Source: Bacteroidota bacterium (GTDB lineage: Bacteria; Bacteroidota; Ignavibacteria; Ignavibacteriales; Ignavibacteriaceae). From it: a stretch of 64,000 nt of DNA. Below, piece by piece: positions 16,052 to 34,460 of this stretch. Position numbers and translations under genes: made by a program. Location of the stretch: positions 62,001 to 126,000 of the forward strand of contig JAKALM010000009.1 of the NCBI GenBank assembly GCA_021824145.1, written 5' to 3'. The number at the start of each line of letters is the position of its first letter. Position 1 is the first letter of the stretch. The notes below the pieces were generated by a model, which was not told the DNA's origin, did no database searches, and saw nothing but the letters and a program-made list of their open reading frames with translations.

Positions 16052-16399
16052 ATGATTGAAGATAATATAAAAATTTTTAGAGCGCTTTCGGATCTTGATC
16101 GGCTAAGAATATTAAAAGCACTTCAATTAAAAGTTTTATGTGAATGCGAAATTAAAGAATTGTTAGGATTAACAAAATCGACGATATCAAAACATCTTGG
16201 CATTCTTAAAGAGTCTGGTTTTGTTTTAGAGCAAAAAAATGGTAAATGGTTTGACTATACTATAAATCCGAAACCCAAAGATGCAAGGATTTCAACAATT
16301 CTTGCAACAATAGATTATTGGATAGCAGACGAAAAAATTATAATTAGTGATAAATTGAAAATAAAAACTTTAGACAGAAAGAATATCTGCTGCAATTAA
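16052..16399 (+). CDS. ArsR/SmtB-family metal(loid)-responsive repressor
   Basis: The 115-residue winged-helix protein has the ArsR pattern: FRALSDLDRLRILKAL, then the metal-site helix KVLCECEIKELLGL and the recognition helix TKSTISKHLGILKESG. The C30-E31-C32 pair matches the ELCVCDL-type As(III)/Sb(III) site of ArsR, and a C-terminal CC pair (C113, C114) could add thiol ligands. No arsenite pump, arsenate reductase or other ars gene is visible nearby, so its target lies elsewhere or the gene is autoregulated. Its last 4 bp overlap the end of the convergent CBM9-like gene. Confidence 0.88.
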   Translation: MIEDNIKIFRALSDLDRLRILKALQLKVLCECEIKELLGLTKSTISKHLGILKESGFVLEQKNGKWFDYTINPKPKDARISTILATIDYWIADEKIIISDKLKIKTLDRKNICCN

Positions 16400-17517
16400 T
16401 TTTTTTTATTAAGCATTTTATTTTGCAATGATTGTTCTATCCAAACACGGCCGTCATTTCTGATTAAAACTGTTTCTGAATTGTCAAGAGATTTCAACTG
16501 GGCTTCAAAATAATCTGATGTGCATTCAACATTAGCCGGCATTTTGAAGCCTTTAATATCTTCTTCTTTAATCCCAATTTTTTTTAAGTCAGTAGTAAAA
16601 GTTCCAATTGAATCAAAATAATTTCTTTCTTTATAATAAATTTGTCTTAAATACCATTTTGCTGCTTCTTCTTTTCTTACAACAAAAGAATCAATTTTAT
16701 TACCAACTGAATCAGTCGAAAATTGAATATAACCCCACATCTCAGGATAATGCATGTTAACAATACCCTGCGGCGACCAAACCCAGTTATCTTCAGGATA
16801 AGGTTTATCAGTTTTAGGATTTATAATTTTCATGTACATTCCATTTTTAACTTCAGTCTTCCATTCCACACGCGAAAAATTAATTCTCCATTGATCTTTA
16901 ATTTTAGGAGGAACAGAGACTTGCGTTATTTCCTTAAAAGCATCCCATGGAAATGCAACCTCAACTGTCCAGCCTTCATCTTTATCGCCGGGTTTATTAA
17001 GTGTTCCGTTAATCTTAACCGAAGATTTCAATCCATGAATATCCTAATCATTTACAGCAGCGTTCCAAGTATCACGGTATGGTTTTATAAGAAGTAAATC
17101 CCAAACAGTATTTAATGCATTCATTTCAAACTCTGAATATCGATGAGTATCACCATCAGGATCAATGAAAATTTCAAAGTCGTTATCATAAAAAATTGCA
17201 GTATCCCGTTGCCTTAGCGTTGCCCAAATGTCTGGTTCTTGTATTTCGGCAGCGATGTAAAGATAGCTGCTGTCCCAAAGCATTTTAACGCGCGTACGAA
17301 ATCTTGGTACTGGTTTGGAATAGCCTTCTATATCTACAAAGTCATTTGTCCATTCTGCTTTTTTCCAGGCAGTTTCAATCAATCGGCCATCTATAATTAA
17401 AGGTTTATTTGTGTAATAACAGATATATTTTTGCGGAGAAAATTTTATTTGCGGAATAGATAGTTGTTGAGCAAAACAAACTGAATTTACGAGAAAAAGT
17501 AAAAGTATTTTTTTCAT
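16396..17517 (-). pseudogene. CBM9-like carbohydrate-binding protein interrupted by an in-frame TAG
   Basis: A signal peptide (MKKILLLFLVNSVCFAQ, ATG at 17517) begins a frame of 157 codons ending at TAG 17046-17044. The same frame continues without shift for a further 216 codons to 16396. The pieces join as ...WNAAVND-stop-DIHGLKSS.... In relatives of this CBM9-like family the residue before D-I-x-G-L is usually Trp (from memory), so TGG to TAG is the simplest explanation. Features on both sides (PLIIDGRLIETAWKKAEW before; GWTVEVAFPWDAF and WRINFSRVEW after) are intact. Either a recent pseudogene, a sequencing error, or readthrough. It is last in the minus-strand glycan cluster. Confidence 0.8.
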
Positions 17518-17582
17518 AATTTTTAAATATTGATTTAATAGCAATAAACTTTGAAATTCATTTGAGAATTATTAAAAATATT

Positions 17583-26839: not shown

Positions 26840-27868
26840 TTAATAAGCGAAACCTAAAGATATATAATGCACATTGCCAAATAATCCAAAAGGTTCCATT
26901 GCATAATCAACACGAATCGGGATATTAGAAACGTTGGCTTTAACACCAATGCCGGCAGTCCAGCTCCTTTCATCATAATTAACTAAATATCCAAAACGTG
27001 CTGTAAACATATCGAAGAAATGATATTCTGCACCAAACTTTACTCTTTCTCTATAATCTCTTGGATGGTTAGATTCAAAACTTAAAATAATTGAACGTGC
27101 AGTTTCGTTATCAAAAATAAATTTAAGTGGCTGAACAGTTGCACTAAAGCTTATAGAAAATGGAAGTGGAAAATTTTCACTTTCATATGCAAGTGATCTT
27201 GAAACATTATAGATTGTTGCGCCGAAAGTAATTCCATTATATTGAAAGTCATAAAATGTTCCAACGTCAGCAGCGATTGTGCCAAGTACATATTTCTTTT
27301 CTTGCAAAGATTTTAAAAGATTAGGATCACCTAAAGAATCTCCAGCGGTTGCAATCCATGCGCTGCCTAAATCTTGTCGTGCATATTTTACATGTACTCC
27401 ATATGAAAATCGTTCACTTACTTTTTGCGAGAAAGCAACGCCAACAGCAATCGCTGTAGGAGAAAATGTTCCAGTTTCTATATATCCTTGATCATTTGCG
27501 GCACGCATTGTTTGATAAAAAGTTCCATAGTCCATTGCTAAAATGCTTAAACCTAAAACACCAAAGTCACCAATATGAATAGAAGCTCCAATAGCATTAT
27601 AATTAATGTCTGCAATACCTTGAGTTCTATTTAAACTTATATCAATATTGTTTGGTACTTCTCCAAGTAATGCGGGGTTCCAAAAAATAGCATTTGAATT
27701 AAAAGTAGTTGTAACTCCAACTCCCCCTCTACCCATAACTTCTGCCGATACAGGATTTTCTAAAAATCTAAAACCAACTTGTGCTCGTTTAACCTGAGCA
27801 TTTATTAAACTTACAAATGATAAACTTAATAGAAAACCTATAATTAAAAACTTTGTAATAATTTTCAT
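26840..27868 (-). CDS. PorV/PorQ-family outer-membrane protein
   Basis: The ATG at 27868 has a strong GGAGG 5 nt upstream and starts a signal peptide (MKIITKFLIIGFLLSLSFVS...NAQ). The 342-residue protein has the PorV/PorQ opening: VGFRFLENPVSAEVMGRGG, then SNAIFWNPALLGEVPNN. Barrel strands end in GNVHYISLGFAY. PorV acts as the shuttle for T9SS substrates at the outer membrane; PorQ-like paralogues have wider roles. It is third in a minus-strand trio after the TonB receptor and a large exported protein, 59 bp after the latter. Confidence 0.85.
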   Translation of the reverse strand: MKIITKFLIIGFLLSLSFVSLINAQVKRAQVGFRFLENPVSAEVMGRGGVGVTTTFNSNAIFWNPALLGEVPNNIDISLNRTQGIADINYNAIGASIHIGDFGVLGLSILAMDYGTFYQTMRAANDQGYIETGTFSPTAIAVGVAFSQKVSERFSYGVHVKYARQDLGSAWIATAGDSLGDPNLLKSLQEKKYVLGTIAADVGTFYDFQYNGITFGATIYNVSRSLAYESENFPLPFSISFSATVQPLKFIFDNETARSIILSFESNHPRDYRERVKFGAEYHFFDMFTARFGYLVNYDERSWTAGIGVKANVSNIPIRVDYAMEPFGLFGNVHYISLGFAY

Positions 27869-27927
27869 CAAAACCTCCATTAAAACCAAAAATGGCAAAT
27901 GTGTATAATCATTTTATTTCTTTCTTA

Positions 27928-30060
27928 TCAGCGAACAAGAATGAATTTGACAAAATCATTTGGCAATGCTCTTCCATCCAAATCTTGGCATTCTGTAACT
28001 GCAAGAATATAAATTCCGCTGCTAACATATTGATTTTCATCAGTCCGCTGGTTCCATTCTTCATCTGCGGTACCTATGTGAACAATTGTTTTCACTAAGT
28101 CTCCAGTTTCAGTAAAAATTCTTAAAGTGCATTTATATGGCAAATTAAAGAAAGATATTTTATCAGGAGTTCCGGAAGAAAGTCCACTGCCAGCAGCAAC
28201 TGTAGCGGGATTTGGTACAACACGAACTTGTTTAGATGTATTTAATCCAGCTTTGTATGGAACTGCTGGATATCCAGTTCTGTTTTCCAACCAGTTGCTT
28301 TCCAATTGCTCACCTGGATAAATTCCATCATTTTGGGAACCATTGTTTACAGCAGAAACTGCATAATAATAATCAACTCCTCTTGTTACATTTTTATCAA
28401 CAAAAGTTGTTTGATTTCTATCTGTAGTTTCATAAACTAACTGCCACCTTGCACCACTGTTCTGGTCTAACGGATCGTTTACTAAATATGCACCTTGCTT
28501 TCTATAAACTCGCCAAGCATACCAATCATCGACACCAGTAATTGTATTTTTAAAATATGAAGGATCTGGATACGACCATTGAACTGTATTAAGATCAGGT
28601 CCAGAAGTAACTTCAATGTCTGGAACTGGTGGAGGAGTTGGAACCGATAAACCTTTACTTATTCTATTCCAAGCCCAATTAGCCCTATCCATAGTTTTCC
28701 AAAGTGAATCTTTCCCAGCGTTTAATATAGCACTATCTTTAGCTCCGTCAGAAATAGTTTTGCTTAGCCAAAGTCTTCCTAAAGAATCACATGCATTCCA
28801 ACCTAATCCGCCAACTCCAACTGCATAAACGAATGTTAAAGAATCAATTCTATTCGATTTAATATCTTTTGTAAGCGTATAAGGACCAACTGTAATAAAA
28901 CGCATTGGTCCTTTTAAAGGTTTAGTTTGAAATCCTGCTGTAATAGGATCTAGCGGAAATCTTCCTCCGTAATCAGCATAATCACCACGATACATATACT
29001 TTACATCAATTCTGTGTTTACCCCATAAATCTGCTTCAATTCCCGCATGTGGAATAGCATAAGGCTGGCTAAGATCGTCTGATCTATCTGAATAAGATTT
29101 ATCTGCATGCAGCAAACTAAATCCGCACACTTGCGGTGAATGGATAAAACCTGTTGTTCTATCAGGATCACCAGCATCATCCGTTGAACCATTTGAGTAT
29201 GCACTTGCACCTGGGAAAGCTGTATCCCAATAGTATGCAACATATAAAGAATCTCTTAATCCATTTGACAATAATTCAGATTTTCTTTTAAACCAACTGT
29301 CCAAATCATCTTGACCTTCATACATAAAAGCATTTGTCACTGCCTTCTCACCCGCTTTTGATGGGCCAAAACTAAAGGAAATAGGCCACCAAAATTTTAT
29401 TGTTTGATCTGGAATTGTATCTTTTGAAGTTGCAGTTCTAGGTAGCTGCAATTCACCAGTAAATTTATGAGTAGCTTTCCAAATAAAATAATTTGCATGA
29501 TTTGGATTTGAAAAAGCATAAACTTCTACATGGCTGCGAATTCCATATTGAGGTTGAACATCTTCAAACGATATTATTTCATCAGCAGGAATATTTTTAT
29601 TTACATACCATTGATAAGGAGGGTCTAATCTAAGCCCATCAACAGTAATATGAGGAGGTCGATATCTTCTCACTTCATAGGCCCAATCAGTTAAACCAAA
29701 ATTTGTTTCTGTTTCAGCTCCAAATCCTGGAATAAAGAAAAATTGTTTTTTCCCGTACTGATCTGTAATTCCAATACTGTCATCAATAGAGATAGGATTA
29801 AAAATCTGGTACAGCATATTTGATTGATACCAGTCTTCAGGCCAATAAAATATTTCTGTATTTTGGCGGTCATTTCCTGTAAGATCCCAACTGAATTGCG
29901 ATTGAAGCCCGCCATCTCCCATCATTTTATTCATACTCATATTAATATGACCAACATTTAAAAGCATTGGCGGCGGATTATAATTTCTATCCTGCGAATA
30001 ATTAATTGTTGTAAATAGCAGTACAATTGGAATTAAATTATTAATTATATTTTTTATCAT
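27928..30060 (-). CDS. Large exported protein with FN3-like and FlgD/T9SS-like C-terminal domain
   Basis: The 710-residue protein has a signal peptide (MIKNIINNLIPIVLLFTTINYSQ). Most of it is not a family I recognise; it is rich in Trp, Tyr and Asp. From about 490 there is an FN3-like segment (VTSGPDLNTVQWSYPDPSYF to YYYAVSAVNNGSQND). The end (VRVVPNPATVAAGS to YVSSGIYILAVTECQ) is the FlgD Ig-like/T9SS sorting fold, though the final strand FVKFILVR is short. It lies 21 bp after the TonB receptor gene with an AAGGA site, and 59 bp before the PorV-like gene. It may be a surface ligand-binding partner of the receptor. Confidence 0.65.
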   Translation of the reverse strand: MIKNIINNLIPIVLLFTTINYSQDRNYNPPPMLLNVGHINMSMNKMMGDGGLQSQFSWDLTGNDRQNTEIFYWPEDWYQSNMLYQIFNPISIDDSIGITDQYGKKQFFFIPGFGAETETNFGLTDWAYEVRRYRPPHITVDGLRLDPPYQWYVNKNIPADEIISFEDVQPQYGIRSHVEVYAFSNPNHANYFIWKATHKFTGELQLPRTATSKDTIPDQTIKFWWPISFSFGPSKAGEKAVTNAFMYEGQDDLDSWFKRKSELLSNGLRDSLYVAYYWDTAFPGASAYSNGSTDDAGDPDRTTGFIHSPQVCGFSLLHADKSYSDRSDDLSQPYAIPHAGIEADLWGKHRIDVKYMYRGDYADYGGRFPLDPITAGFQTKPLKGPMRFITVGPYTLTKDIKSNRIDSLTFVYAVGVGGLGWNACDSLGRLWLSKTISDGAKDSAILNAGKDSLWKTMDRANWAWNRISKGLSVPTPPPVPDIEVTSGPDLNTVQWSYPDPSYFKNTITGVDDWYAWRVYRKQGAYLVNDPLDQNSGARWQLVYETTDRNQTTFVDKNVTRGVDYYYAVSAVNNGSQNDGIYPGEQLESNWLENRTGYPAVPYKAGLNTSKQVRVVPNPATVAAGSGLSSGTPDKISFFNLPYKCTLRIFTETGDLVKTIVHIGTADEEWNQRTDENQYVSSGIYILAVTECQDLDGRALPNDFVKFILVR

Positions 30061-30081
30061 TTTTTATCCTTAATCAAAAAT

Positions 30082-33000
30082 TTAAAAATCTAATCTTAAG
30101 CCAATTATGTATCTTCTTGGGTTTAGAAATATTGGTGCTTCCCACCAGCCAACTTTAATATGATTATCAGAGGACTTATATTGCCCCCATTCATCACTTC
30201 CACCTTTATCCGGAGTTTTTAAAGAATTTTTATAATCGCTGTATTGTTGTAAAGTCATATTATTTGTATTCAGCCATTTATTATTCGTTAAGTTTTGTAT
30301 GGTAAGTACAAATTCCAAATTTCCGAATGGTGTATTAATAGCTTTTGAAGCACGCATATCAATATTCCAATAATTTACAATGTCAATCCAATTTTGAAGT
30401 TTAGGATCAGATTCTTCAGGATTTAATAATATAGAACCTCCGCTGTGCCATTCAAATAAGAAGTTTGCATAAAGTGCACCAAAAATATTATGACCAAGAA
30501 TTTGCGGCCCAAAATCCTTAGGTGTATGCAAGTTCAAATTTATATTTGCCCTTGGAATTGCTTGGTCTCTATTTATGACAGGCTGCCTTAATTCATTATC
30601 CCTAGATATTAAAGGATTTTCATAAACTGCAGCAAGACCGAAATGCCCAATATTTTGAATCATATAATCATACATTGCATTAAAAGTAAAAAACCTTCCA
30701 ACATTTCTTTCTAACCTTACCTCAATACCTCTTGTATCACTATAACCATCGGGGACATATTCTGTAACAATATTGTCTCCATAATAATTTACATAAGTTC
30801 TATCAAGCGGTTGATTTTTTTGATCTTTATAATATGCAGTTATATTTATTAGGAAATCAGATAGGAACAATTGTTCATAACCAAACTCATAAGAAATTGT
30901 TTCACCCATTTCAAGTCCTGGGGTAGGAACAGCAACTGAGCCTTGGCTGACATTCATTCCATATAAAAATGAAACTTGAGGTGCTTGATAAAAATGACCA
31001 TAGTTAAAATACATCTTACTGCTCTCAGTAATGGGGAAAGAGACGCCTAATCGCGGTGAGATGTAAGTTTGAATATCGTTTGCTGTTCTTGGCCATCCGG
31101 GGGGATTGTTAAGCATGTTTCTATAAATTAACCATCTATCATATTGATTTGCCGTTCCCGGTAAGAATGGATAAACATAACTATACAAAGCAGCATATGC
31201 TGGATTTAACGGAAAACCGACCTGAAATCCCTGTTTCATTGGATCTAGCATATCCAATCTTATACCAGCATTTAATACCATTCCTTCAAATTCTAATTTG
31301 TCTTGTACGTAAGCACCGGCAATTAAAGGAGTAGCTTTAAAATACTGCCAAGTATCTGGTGTATAAGCCAAATAAGCCTGCAGCCAAGTTCCAGAATAAA
31401 CAAATATATTTTGTAAAGTTGCCGAAAAACCAGCTTCAATTTGATGATGACGACCTAATTGTGCGGTTAAATCTCCTTTTAATCGATATACATATGAATA
31501 TGATGAATCAACACGCTGAAGACCGCCATACATGATATATTGGCCTAAAACATCTGAACCAAAATTTGTTGATGCATTTGGGCTGCCATAATCCGGAACA
31601 TTGTAAGTATAATATTTTTTTGCTGCTGTGCTGTAAAAAGTAACATATTGTGAATGATTACTAGTATCCATTGCAAATGGAGAAAGATTTTGATCTGTAT
31701 ATCCAGATTGAAAATCAATTGTATAAAAAGCATTATCAGAAATTGTTTGTGTTAATTTGGCACCACCAACTATATACCGTTGAGTAAAATATTGCAACCT
31801 GCTTCGGTTAAACATTTGAAATTCGCTGCTTCCACCAAGCATATTTGCTTGACGTGCAATTGCTTCTGTTGTATTATTTAAATAACTGAAGCTTTGAGAA
31901 TTCCCCACTAACGCTCCGCCAAAACTTGTAGTTGCGTTTCCGCCAATTGAATTTACTGTTGCATAAAGGCCATTTAATGACAACCTCATATTATTTGGTA
32001 AAGTAGTAGTCAACTTTAATTGTGCATTCCAATCAACATAGTTATTTCTGGGACCAATTGGAAAAGCGAACTGTGAATTCTCGTATTTGAATCCTAAGAG
32101 AAAAGTTGTATTCTTTGCATAATCGCCAAAGAAAGGAATAAAATTACCAGGCAGCGGACCTGTAATACTTCCTTCAACATACATATCTGGAACATTTGCA
32201 AAGTTGTACATTGGATGCTGTAATTTCCAAAGCTCTAGCTTTTGTGTTGAATCTAAGGCAATGGGGCCAGTCGTTCGATTAGTCCATCCTTTAAATCCTT
32301 GAAACTCTGCTGGTACAGTAGAATCTCCTTTAGGAACCCCGTGCATTGCATATTGTCCAGCATAAACTTTGTATTCCCAAGAGTCGGCACTCCATGGATT
32401 AACTCCAAAAAATCTTTTTTGTCCCGATGGAGCCATATCTATGCTTAAGGAATAAGTATATCTTTCTCTTTGTCCATCTTTAGTAACAACATTTAATAAA
32501 CCAGACTGCATACCACCATATTTAGCTTCAAACCCGCCTGTTAACAATTGAACTTCTTTAATAGTAGTAGTATTTAAAGCTAAATAAGAATTATCAGTTC
32601 TCGGATCTCTTAAAGATATTCCATCCAGTCTTACATCTGTTTGGCGAATAGAACCTCCGCGAACACTTAACCCATTTCCTTCTGTACTGCTGACTACCTG
32701 AACTCCTTTTAGAGTACCAAGAAATTCATCTAATCTTGTAACAGGCATTTCCGTAAGACGGGATGGTTCAATAATTTCCTGTGTGGCGGATACGTCTTGT
32801 TTGATAATTTCTCTCTTTGCAGTAACAATAACTTGGTTAACTTGAATTGATGATTGAGTCAATTCAAAATTTAAATTTATAGTTCTGTCAATATCTACTT
32901 TAACCATTGTTTGAGTTACGGATGCATATCCAACCATACTCGCCCTTACAGCATAAACCCCTGGCTGAACATCGAGAATAAAATAATAGCCGTCAACATT

Positions 33001-33225
33001 TGTAACTGCCCCCATTGGACGATCTAAGGGAATTTCTCTTCCATCAGATAAAAATGTAGAGGTGATTACAACATTAACTGATGGCAATGGTTCGCGGGTT
33101 TGGCTATCTATTACTCTACCGGTTATTTTACCATTTGCAGCAAATGAAACTCTCCCACAAAAGATTATAAAAGTCATTATTATTATAAAGGAAGAGTACT
33201 CTTTAAGTTTGTATAAATTTTTCAT
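30082..33225 (-). CDS. TonB-dependent receptor with CarboxypepD_reg-like domain
   Basis: The 1047-residue outer-membrane protein has a signal peptide, then a CarboxypepD_reg domain (about 31-130, GRVIDSQTREPLPSVNVVI). The plug domain (about 150-260) has LSVRGGSIRQTDVRLDGIS and EAKYGGMQSGLLNVVTKDG. A large barrel follows, with SKMYFNYGHFYQAPQ, SYEFGYEQLFLSDFL and a terminal strand IIGLRLDF. This type is common in Ignavibacteria and related phyla as the first gene of receptor/secreted protein/PorV-like clusters (recalled, not searched). AGGG precedes the ATG. The transported substrate is unknown. Confidence 0.88.
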   Translation of the reverse strand: MKNLYKLKEYSSFIIIMTFIIFCGRVSFAANGKITGRVIDSQTREPLPSVNVVITSTFLSDGREIPLDRPMGAVTNVDGYYFILDVQPGVYAVRASMVGYASVTQTMVKVDIDRTINLNFELTQSSIQVNQVIVTAKREIIKQDVSATQEIIEPSRLTEMPVTRLDEFLGTLKGVQVVSSTEGNGLSVRGGSIRQTDVRLDGISLRDPRTDNSYLALNTTTIKEVQLLTGGFEAKYGGMQSGLLNVVTKDGQRERYTYSLSIDMAPSGQKRFFGVNPWSADSWEYKVYAGQYAMHGVPKGDSTVPAEFQGFKGWTNRTTGPIALDSTQKLELWKLQHPMYNFANVPDMYVEGSITGPLPGNFIPFFGDYAKNTTFLLGFKYENSQFAFPIGPRNNYVDWNAQLKLTTTLPNNMRLSLNGLYATVNSIGGNATTSFGGALVGNSQSFSYLNNTTEAIARQANMLGGSSEFQMFNRSRLQYFTQRYIVGGAKLTQTISDNAFYTIDFQSGYTDQNLSPFAMDTSNHSQYVTFYSTAAKKYYTYNVPDYGSPNASTNFGSDVLGQYIMYGGLQRVDSSYSYVYRLKGDLTAQLGRHHQIEAGFSATLQNIFVYSGTWLQAYLAYTPDTWQYFKATPLIAGAYVQDKLEFEGMVLNAGIRLDMLDPMKQGFQVGFPLNPAYAALYSYVYPFLPGTANQYDRWLIYRNMLNNPPGWPRTANDIQTYISPRLGVSFPITESSKMYFNYGHFYQAPQVSFLYGMNVSQGSVAVPTPGLEMGETISYEFGYEQLFLSDFLINITAYYKDQKNQPLDRTYVNYYGDNIVTEYVPDGYSDTRGIEVRLERNVGRFFTFNAMYDYMIQNIGHFGLAAVYENPLISRDNELRQPVINRDQAIPRANINLNLHTPKDFGPQILGHNIFGALYANFLFEWHSGGSILLNPEESDPKLQNWIDIVNYWNIDMRASKAINTPFGNLEFVLTIQNLTNNKWLNTNNMTLQQYSDYKNSLKTPDKGGSDEWGQYKSSDNHIKVGWWEAPIFLNPRRYIIGLRLDF

Positions 33226-33506
33226 ATGTAACCCTATTATTAGGTAGTAATTCTACAGTAATAATTATTTTTTGTTTTTATTCTTTAACTTCTATTCTTA
33301 ATGACTTAATTTTTAGTATCTGTTTTTTATTATTTGATTAAGGAATTAAAAACAAATAATTTTTATTGTAGAAAAAGCTATTGAGAACGTATATGTTAAG
33401 CAAGATATTATTTCAGTAAAAAAATTTCTTGCTTTTAGAATTAATATTTATTAAGATAAATTTTCGATATGCTTAATTACAATAAATTTAAAGGAAGGGT
33501 ATAAGA

Positions 33507-34460
33507 TTGGCAATAATTGCAATAGACCTGATGAGCACAAATTTGACAGTTGCTGCATTGGGAAAAACAGGGAAGATACTAGAAATGGAAACAGCAAGCA
33601 TTAAAGGATTAAAAGGAAATGAAGTCAGTATAGTTATTCAAAAAAACATTAAAAAGATTTTAAATAATTTTAAAAATAAACCGATCGAAATAAAATCAGC
33701 AGGTCTATCTGTCCCAGGAATTTATTTTTCCAAAACAGGAACCGCTTGGGCACCAAATATTCCTGGATGGGAAAACTATCCAATCAAACAAGAGTTATTT
33801 GAAGTTCTAATTGAACAAAACATTTATTTAAAAATAGCTAGCAAAAGAACTTGCGATATATTAGGTGAGATGTGGTTGGGTGCTGCTAAAGGCTCTAAAA
33901 ATGCAGTCTATTTATCCATCGGCAGCGGAATAGGCGCAGGTGTATTAATCGATGGAAAAATCCTTCATGGATTTAATGACGGTGTTGGTGCTGTAGGTTG
34001 GCTTGCTTTAGAAAAGCCTTTTAGAGAAGTTTATAAATCGAAAGGCTGTTTTGAATATCTAGCTTCTGGATCTGGGATAGTAAATATGTCTATAGAATTA
34101 ATTTCTAAAAGCAAAAATTATAAAGGCTCGTTAATAAAGAAAAGTATCGAATTACTTACTGCAATTGACGTTATAGAAGCATATAAGCTAAAAGATCCAA
34201 TTGCAGTAAAAGTAATTCAGCAGTGTATTGAATATTGGGGAATGGCAACAGCAAATTTAATTAGTTCCTTTAATCCAGAAATAATCATATTCGGAGGTCC
34301 TTTGTTTGGGCCTGGATTAATATTCTTAGATGATATAAAATCTGAAGCAAGAAAATGGTCGCAGCCGATATTCATCGAAAAAGTAAAATTTCTTGGGTCA
34401 AAACTTGGTGCTAACGCAGGTTTGTTTGGTGCTGGCCATTTAGCCATGAAAAAATTTTGA
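33507..34460 (+). CDS. ROK-fold protein lacking catalytic and zinc-site residues
   Basis: TTG start at 33507 with AAGGAAGGG upstream. The 317-residue protein keeps the ROK architecture: SAGLSVPGIYF, PNIPGWENYPI, LSIGSGIGAGVLIDG and ILHGFNDGVGAVGW. Key residues are missing, however. The N-terminal phosphate loop reads DLMSTNLTVA instead of DxGGTK. The catalytic Asn-Asp of NDANAAALGE aligns with S112-K113 (IASKRTCDILGE). The zinc-site GH becomes G164-W165, and the CxCGxxGCxE cluster is reduced to KGCFEY (C181). It is therefore unlikely to be a sugar kinase. It has no N-terminal helix-turn-helix, so it is not a typical ROK repressor. Role unknown. Confidence 0.8.
   Translation: MAIIAIDLMSTNLTVAALGKTGKILEMETASIKGLKGNEVSIVIQKNIKKILNNFKNKPIEIKSAGLSVPGIYFSKTGTAWAPNIPGWENYPIKQELFEVLIEQNIYLKIASKRTCDILGEMWLGAAKGSKNAVYLSIGSGIGAGVLIDGKILHGFNDGVGAVGWLALEKPFREVYKSKGCFEYLASGSGIVNMSIELISKSKNYKGSLIKKSIELLTAIDVIEAYKLKDPIAVKVIQQCIEYWGMATANLISSFNPEIIIFGGPLFGPGLIFLDDIKSEARKWSQPIFIEKVKFLGSKLGANAGLFGAGHLAMKKF

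Follow-up and report, generated by a model that had tools for sequence, protein, structure and literature searches.

In the ROK repressors NagC, Mlc and Lmo0178, which carry an N-terminal HTH domain, the ROK fold serves regulation rather than catalysis. Four ROK signatures, namely DxGxT, a catalytic Asp, ExGH and CxCGxxGCx(E/D), are set out in the available part of PMC5458393, where the Asn-Asp pair of F. nucleatum NanK (5nck) is numbered Asn106-Asp107. For P. shigelloides NagK, the available part of PMC10031466 places the D105N and D6 mutants below detection, gives kcat values of 12.5 and 18.4 per second for T10V and T132V as against 202 per second for the unaltered enzyme, and reports a KM for GlcNAc of >50 mM for E154Q. 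ROK proteins dimerise through the large domain (PMC2742894, PMC5458393, each as available in part), and in human GNE the stretch that follows the ExGH His is described as lying at the dimer interface (PMC2742894).

The ROK protein described here (A) is encoded in a window of 64,000 nucleotides, the whole stretch of DNA analysed, from a Bacteroidota bacterium; its sister paralogue is termed B, and the window's own genome G000 (3.48 Mb, 95% complete), in which five ROK proteins were found at E 1e-3. The features of the locus are collected in Table 1. Read from the window letters, the open reading frame of A holds no internal stop over 317 residues, and AAAGGAAGGG lies 7 nt upstream of its TTG start, bearing out the original prediction of a complete gene with a good ribosome binding site; the start is supported because orthologues, the window's own included, begin at the same place (TTG in nine, ATG in four, GTG in two). 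The predicted ROK fold is likewise borne out, both by Pfam model PF00480, which matches residues 4-315 at 114.5 bits (cut-off 22.9), and by the AlphaFold model (pLDDT 85.9, with residues 155-171 below 50), in which A has the two-domain ROK fold with a Z of 33.8 to 2qm1. The N-terminal HTH domain of ROK repressors such as NagC and Mlc, whose absence had also been predicted, is lacking by both the open frame and the NagC model: the open frame around the 317-aa ORF amounts to 322 aa and therefore has no room for such a domain, and the NagC model scores 85.8 bits against a cut-off of 650 and covers profile positions 81-375 only. None of the four ROK signatures is intact in the window's A, which reads DLMST at the first, K113 at the catalytic Asp, AVGW at ExGH and, of the zinc motif CxCGxxGCxE, retains GCFE alone; S112-K113 takes the place of the catalytic [N/S]D pair, as seen from its alignment with the Asn-Asp of 5nck.

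Table 1. Features of the A locus, in positions of the window.
Feature	Coordinates	Strand	Basis
c6, PorV-family protein	26840..27898	-	NF033709, 164.9 bits, cut-off 90
c5, 710 aa, without Pfam match, conserved after c3	27928..30060	-	neighbourhood comparison, Pfam
TonB-dependent receptor c3, divergent neighbour of A	30082..33225	-	named by eye from sequence
Divergent A-c3 intergenic region, 281 bp	33226..33506	.	TTCTTGCTTTTAGAA stretch common to three same-genus genomes aligned
Shine-Dalgarno-like AGGAAGGG, then a 7-nt spacer up to the TTG of A	33492..33506	+	sequence read
ROK pseudokinase A, 317 aa, TTG start	33507..34460	+	same losses in 15 A sequences, own included
Degenerate phosphate-1 loop D7-N12, DLMSTN vs DLGGTK	33525..33542	+	alignment
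K113 codon at catalytic Asp position	33843..33845	+	alignment
S140 codon at phosphate-2 Thr position (Thr in 25/25 B)	33924..33926	+	alignment
A162-V-G-W165 replacing ExGH; pattern common to paralogue B	33990..34001	+	alignment
P265 codon at third Gly of adenosine GGG motif (Gly in 25/25 B)	34299..34301	+	alignment

The case for A as a pseudokinase rests on its orthologues. Searches covered 80 genomes of the family, queried with A, and then 164 order genomes, queried with a B profile, the latter giving A in 15 genomes and B in 17, with every A genome among the 17. A without B was not found among these 164 genomes, so that A co-occurs with an intact paralogue in 15/15, as a prozyme would; B without A occurs in G051 (99% complete) and G064 (81%). 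Samples of the class (391 genomes) and phylum (395) added eight genomes (G195, G204, G242, G302, G319, G406, G554 and G717) with one match apiece, all B by motif, and A's absence is softer there than in the order since at most five candidates were scored per genome. The window's A is 45-52% identical to the eight B sequences compared with it. Among the 32 order sequences, A and B were told apart by the GGTK motif, without use of the Asp; on this division both the GGTK loop and the catalytic Asp are present in 25/25 B and missing in 15/15 A, position 113 being Lys in ten and Asn in five. The search for orthologues with the same substitutions, suggested with the original prediction, thus upheld the loss of both the catalytic Asp and the N-terminal phosphate loop, and because all fifteen share them the losses are not attributable to chance. 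In a tree built on whole sequences with nine canonical ROK rows, A forms one clade (support 98/100), and A and B together separate from the canonical rows (100/99); long branches meet between those rows and A+B, and the A clade sits inside A+B. B requires two changes on this tree, and in 48% of bootstrap trees a single branch separates B from the rest; A may be nested in B or sister to it, either arrangement fitting the tree. The A clade spans three families of the order, with all 15 ORFs full-length. Sequence L038, on the same contig as G162:C35 (equal length, 65614), was left out of the counts and represents G162 in alignments A1 and A3; the B of G135 was skipped by the ORF caller under its overlap rule and was located from the profile search of the order. 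G161 additionally carries a ROK-like ORF of 281 aa (L092:582-1424) that clusters with A and B at at least 30% identity.

Estimates of dN/dS (NG86), which are rough since dS exceeded 1, were 0.020, 0.066 and 0.050 for A in the three closest pairs (0.101, 0.051 and 0.109 for B) and 0.139 for A and 0.128 for B in a fourth, more distant pair, two further pairs giving no value; NG86 dS was above 1, and hence saturated, in 8 of 12 comparisons and not computable in the other 4, and YN00 gave none in 8 of the 12. By these estimates the close A pairs are under strong purifying selection, not in decay. Orthologues retaining the Asp, which would have pointed to random decay, number 0/15, and the losses shared by all members of a clade with 98/100 support, together with the low ratios in the closest pairs, favour the retained non-kinase function originally proposed. 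That A is a conserved ROK pseudokinase with such a function is well supported by the sequences compared.

Besides the losses common to A and B, A has losses of its own, and it is these that bear on its activity. Seventy columns are invariant in the 25 B sequences, of which eight have been abandoned by most A: 9, 10 and 12 (phosphate-1), 113 (base), 140 (phosphate-2 Thr), 265 (adenosine GGG), 146 and 171. ATP and catalytic motifs account for 6 of these 8 as against 13 of the 70 (hypergeometric P 3e-4, for motifs chosen with knowledge of the alignment). At DxGxT, Gly9 and Gly10 are replaced in 15/15 A, Asp7 being kept in 14 and Thr11 in 10; the phosphate-1 Gly-Gly and Lys are gone in 15/15 and the phosphate-2 Thr in 14/15. 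By motif, positions 113 and 140 of A correspond to D105 and T132 of NagK. No new conserved acid has appeared near the base position in the 15 A sequences (position 117 is Asp in 7/15), and we consider it very probable that A carries out no phosphotransfer. The presence of D7, by motif a metal ligand, in 14/15 and of T11 in 10/15 nevertheless speaks against a complete loss of nucleotide handling, and most of GxGIGxG is retained as well. A also has fixed residues of its own that are absent or rare in B, with S10 in 15/15 and T14, T115, S137 and V160 each in at least 14/15.

On the sugar side, A and B are alike. The Glu position of ExGH is Ala in 13 and Ser in 2 of the A sequences and the His position Trp in all 15, and ExGH is equally gone from 25/25 B, with Ala or Ser at Glu and Trp at His. 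In the zinc motif, A keeps Gly180 and Glu183, has Cys181 in 7/15 and lacks the first two Cys, which are missing also from the B rows compared. The zinc-site His and Cys losses had been counted in the original prediction among the signs of a pseudokinase; the losses are real, and we ruled them out as such a sign, for B, which has Asp and GGTK in 25/25, also lacks ExGH, and the zinc cysteines are missing from the B rows compared. They predate or accompany the A-B split and therefore say nothing on A's activity. Since both paralogues lack the ExGH Glu, GlcNAc binding is assured for neither, and since B keeps the ATP loop and base without ExGH and the zinc motif, its substrate recognition must differ from that of known NagK. 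Kinase B appears intact and active-looking by its motifs. The B clade (L045:9402-10349 and homologues) is itself a group with GGTK and Asp present, Trp at the ExGH His in 25/25 and Ala or Ser at the Glu. W165 and E183, pocket residues of the B type, are retained in 15/15 A, and because they are kept as nucleotide-site residues are lost, it is plausible that A senses sugar. P171 is kept in 6/15 A, and the stretch after the former ExGH His has diverged in A.

Several relatives share a locus in which A, B, an MFS permease gene and a SIS_2 protein gene are divergent from c3, c5, a PorV-family gene and a GH9 gene; DUF5009, NagA and GH18 genes belong to it in some relatives only. A is divergent from c3 in 11/15 A genomes, the c3 ORF being only partial in G133, and lies away from it in G159, G160, G161 and G163, adjoining a SIS gene in the first two. 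In seven (G060, G069, G072, G113, G133, G161 and G163) A immediately precedes B, both in one orientation; in the other eight, G000 among them, the two genes lie on separate contigs or at a distance of 11-104 kb, and six of these (G000, G017, G021, G134, G135 and G162) still have A next to c3. In G000, B is on another contig with MFS and SIS genes and a member of the GH9 cluster. The NagA of G113 scores 312 bits (cut-off 226) and the SIS protein of G060 scores 227 bits with PRK02947 (cut-off 135); the DUF5009 protein falls below the NagX model (27.6 bits, cut-off 480). Taken by its gene content, A's locus is probably an amino-sugar (GlcNAc/chito-oligosaccharide) utilisation locus. Chitin was dropped as the substrate of G000, whose genome as a whole gave no GH18 match at E 1e-3, despite two NagA over cut-off and the GH9-cluster gene near B. 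GH18-like genes do occur in the c3 locus of several relatives, and a chitinase of G000 may be absent or unassembled. On one contig of G302, for which one match was obtained with 5 of 12 candidates scored, c3, GH18, c5, PorV-family, GH9, DUF5009, B and MFS genes are found and A is not among them, and A therefore looks like an added part.

Some further observations concern the surroundings of these genes. The c3, c5 and PorV-family genes (26840-33225 in the window) form a conserved triad in many relatives, and additional, diverged copies of c5 (27%) and of the PorV-family gene (33-34%) occur close by in L107 and L108. In G051, which has B and no A, MFS genes of one cluster flank B on both sides (L048:8316-11675). 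Elsewhere in the window, on the minus strand at 16396-17544, adjacent ORFs of 166 and 211 aa look like two parts of a single gene for a sugar-binding protein, broken by a frameshift, and adjoin GH92-like and GH2-like genes (named by eye).

Our favoured reading, tentatively, is that A binds sugar and acts as a regulatory partner, kinase B being the likeliest target. In its favour are the presence of B in every A genome, the A-B tandem in seven of them and the correlation of A and B distances. A would be a duplicate of B, a ROK kinase without the zinc site, that arose within the probable amino-sugar locus, lost the catalytic base and most of the nucleotide phosphate grips, and retained the fold together with the unusual residues that B has on its sugar side. 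Incoming sugar would be bound by A, and A would pair with B via the large domain, the ROK dimer contact, setting the activity of kinase B as a prozyme-like heteromer. In its full form the model describes a hetero-oligomeric sugar kinase, a ROK 'prozyme' of bacteria, in which the dead subunit would sense the sugar and switch its live counterpart; in this possibility we place rather less confidence. Sugar binding, the heteromer, the substrate and the activity of B are parts of this model that we infer. Against B as the partner stand the separation of A and B in 8/15 genomes and the occurrence of B without A; as B lacks A in G051 (99% complete) and G302, B-type kinases need no A in general. The alignment would count against it too, in that the stretch corresponding to the GNE dimer interface has diverged in A, Asp7 and Thr11 would be needless in a nucleotide-free protein, and the ExGH Glu and His are gone in both.

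The distances between genomes do not settle the partner. A and B distances correlate at r 0.73 (Mantel P 0.0005), as compared, over all 15, with 0.66 for MFS, 0.55 for SIS, 0.42 for c3 (one copy being used for G160 and G162, which hold two) and 0.36 each for c5 and PorV-family. Without G113 and G133 the values are 0.69 for MFS, 0.64 for SIS and 0.58 for B, the correlation with MFS being 0.69 and 0.84 with outliers removed. Distance matrices were accordingly rejected as proof of an A-B complex, the correlation without outliers not being specific to B, and these data give no preference to B over the MFS permease. By these distances A evolves alongside the cytoplasmic sugar module, not alongside the receptor that is often its neighbour. 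The TonB receptor was rejected as a partner on this weaker correlation and on distribution: c3 was found at E 1e-200 in 14/164 order genomes, each with A, and at E 1e-150 in 31/391 class-sample genomes, only 10 of which have A, so that c3 does not need A.

These distances lend substance to the strongest alternative, a possible but doubtful one, that A is a cytoplasmic sugar sensor acting on a partner other than kinase B, for example by inhibiting or licensing the MFS permease, or through a transcription factor that serves the divergent TonB operon. Unphosphorylated EIIA inhibits or licenses permeases, and a divergent slot beside a TonB receptor gene is a common place for a regulator. A holds that slot in 11/15 genomes, even in the six with B elsewhere, and its distances follow those of MFS, whose gene comes after B in 15/15, about as well as those of B. 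Its lack of an HTH domain weighs against this alternative, as do the weaker c3 correlation and the four genomes in which A is not beside c3; moreover, a search for operators in ten A-c3 spacers and in seven regions preceding B gave no palindrome shared between genera.

It is unlikely that A has weak or different catalysis, whether as a kinase with another base, an ATPase or a phosphatase. The retained Asp7, most of GxGIGxG and the complete fold would suit such an activity, against which stand Lys or Asn at the base position in 15/15, the loss of the phosphate-1 Gly-Gly and Lys in 15/15 and of the phosphate-2 Thr in 14/15, the lack of a new acid nearby and the finding, in the part of PMC10031466 available, that with D105N the activity of a ROK kinase falls below detection. 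That A is a ROK transcription factor binding DNA alone is very improbable: the fold common with ROK repressors (1z05 Z 30.2, Lmo0178 Z 29.4) and the divergent position would fit, but there is no space upstream for an HTH domain, the first strand of the AlphaFold model beginning at residue 2. A decaying relic without function, for which the lost motifs and the free variation of positions 9, 12, 140 and 265 might speak, is scarcely credible given 15/15 full-length ORFs in a single clade over three families, the low dN/dS (0.02-0.07) of the three closest pairs and residues invariant in A itself.

An HTH-less ROK pseudokinase retained for long next to its intact sister offers a natural experiment on the path from sugar kinase to regulator, and with A and B regulation by a dead subunit could be tested cleanly in bacteria. 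If true, a ROK prozyme would add a third role to the two of the ROK fold, as kinase and as HTH repressor. B, for its part, flags a ROK clade with the ATP loop and base but without ExGH and the zinc motif. Both the ROK fold and pairs with a dead paralogue are known. Their combination here, in which a ROK pseudokinase lacking an HTH domain accompanies an intact paralogue, did not appear among the matches listed in the open-licence literature, nor did any paper on a ROK pseudokinase, which does not in itself show absence from print.

Among solved structures, the best match to A is E. faecalis glucokinase 2qm1 (Z 33.8, rmsd 2.5 over 305 aligned residues, 26% identity), and P. shigelloides NagK 7p7w has the same fold over the whole length (Z 28.5, rmsd 2.9, 289 aligned); in contrast to these ROK kinases, A lacks the catalytic Asp, the GGTK loop, the phosphate-2 Thr, ExGH and the zinc motif. 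F. nucleatum NanK (5nck, Z 31.0) and Listeria 4htl (Z 30.2) are, like A, without the zinc cysteines in the available account of PMC5458393; unlike A, the former retains DxGxT, Asp and ExGH and the latter Asn-Asp and Glu, Tyr taking the place of the His (PMC5458393). The repressors NagC, Mlc and Lmo0178 match A in fold, and A differs from them in having no HTH domain. In the trypanosomatid prozymes of AdoMetDC and deoxyhypusine synthase, as described in the available parts of PMC5201418 and PMC3663545, a dead paralogue stands beside a live one as A would; those enzymes are other than ROK, and the A-B heteromer is a prediction here. The Shewanella Nag pathway, in what is available of PMC2996990, resembles parts of the A/B locus in its NagP, NagX, NagK and NagB-II.
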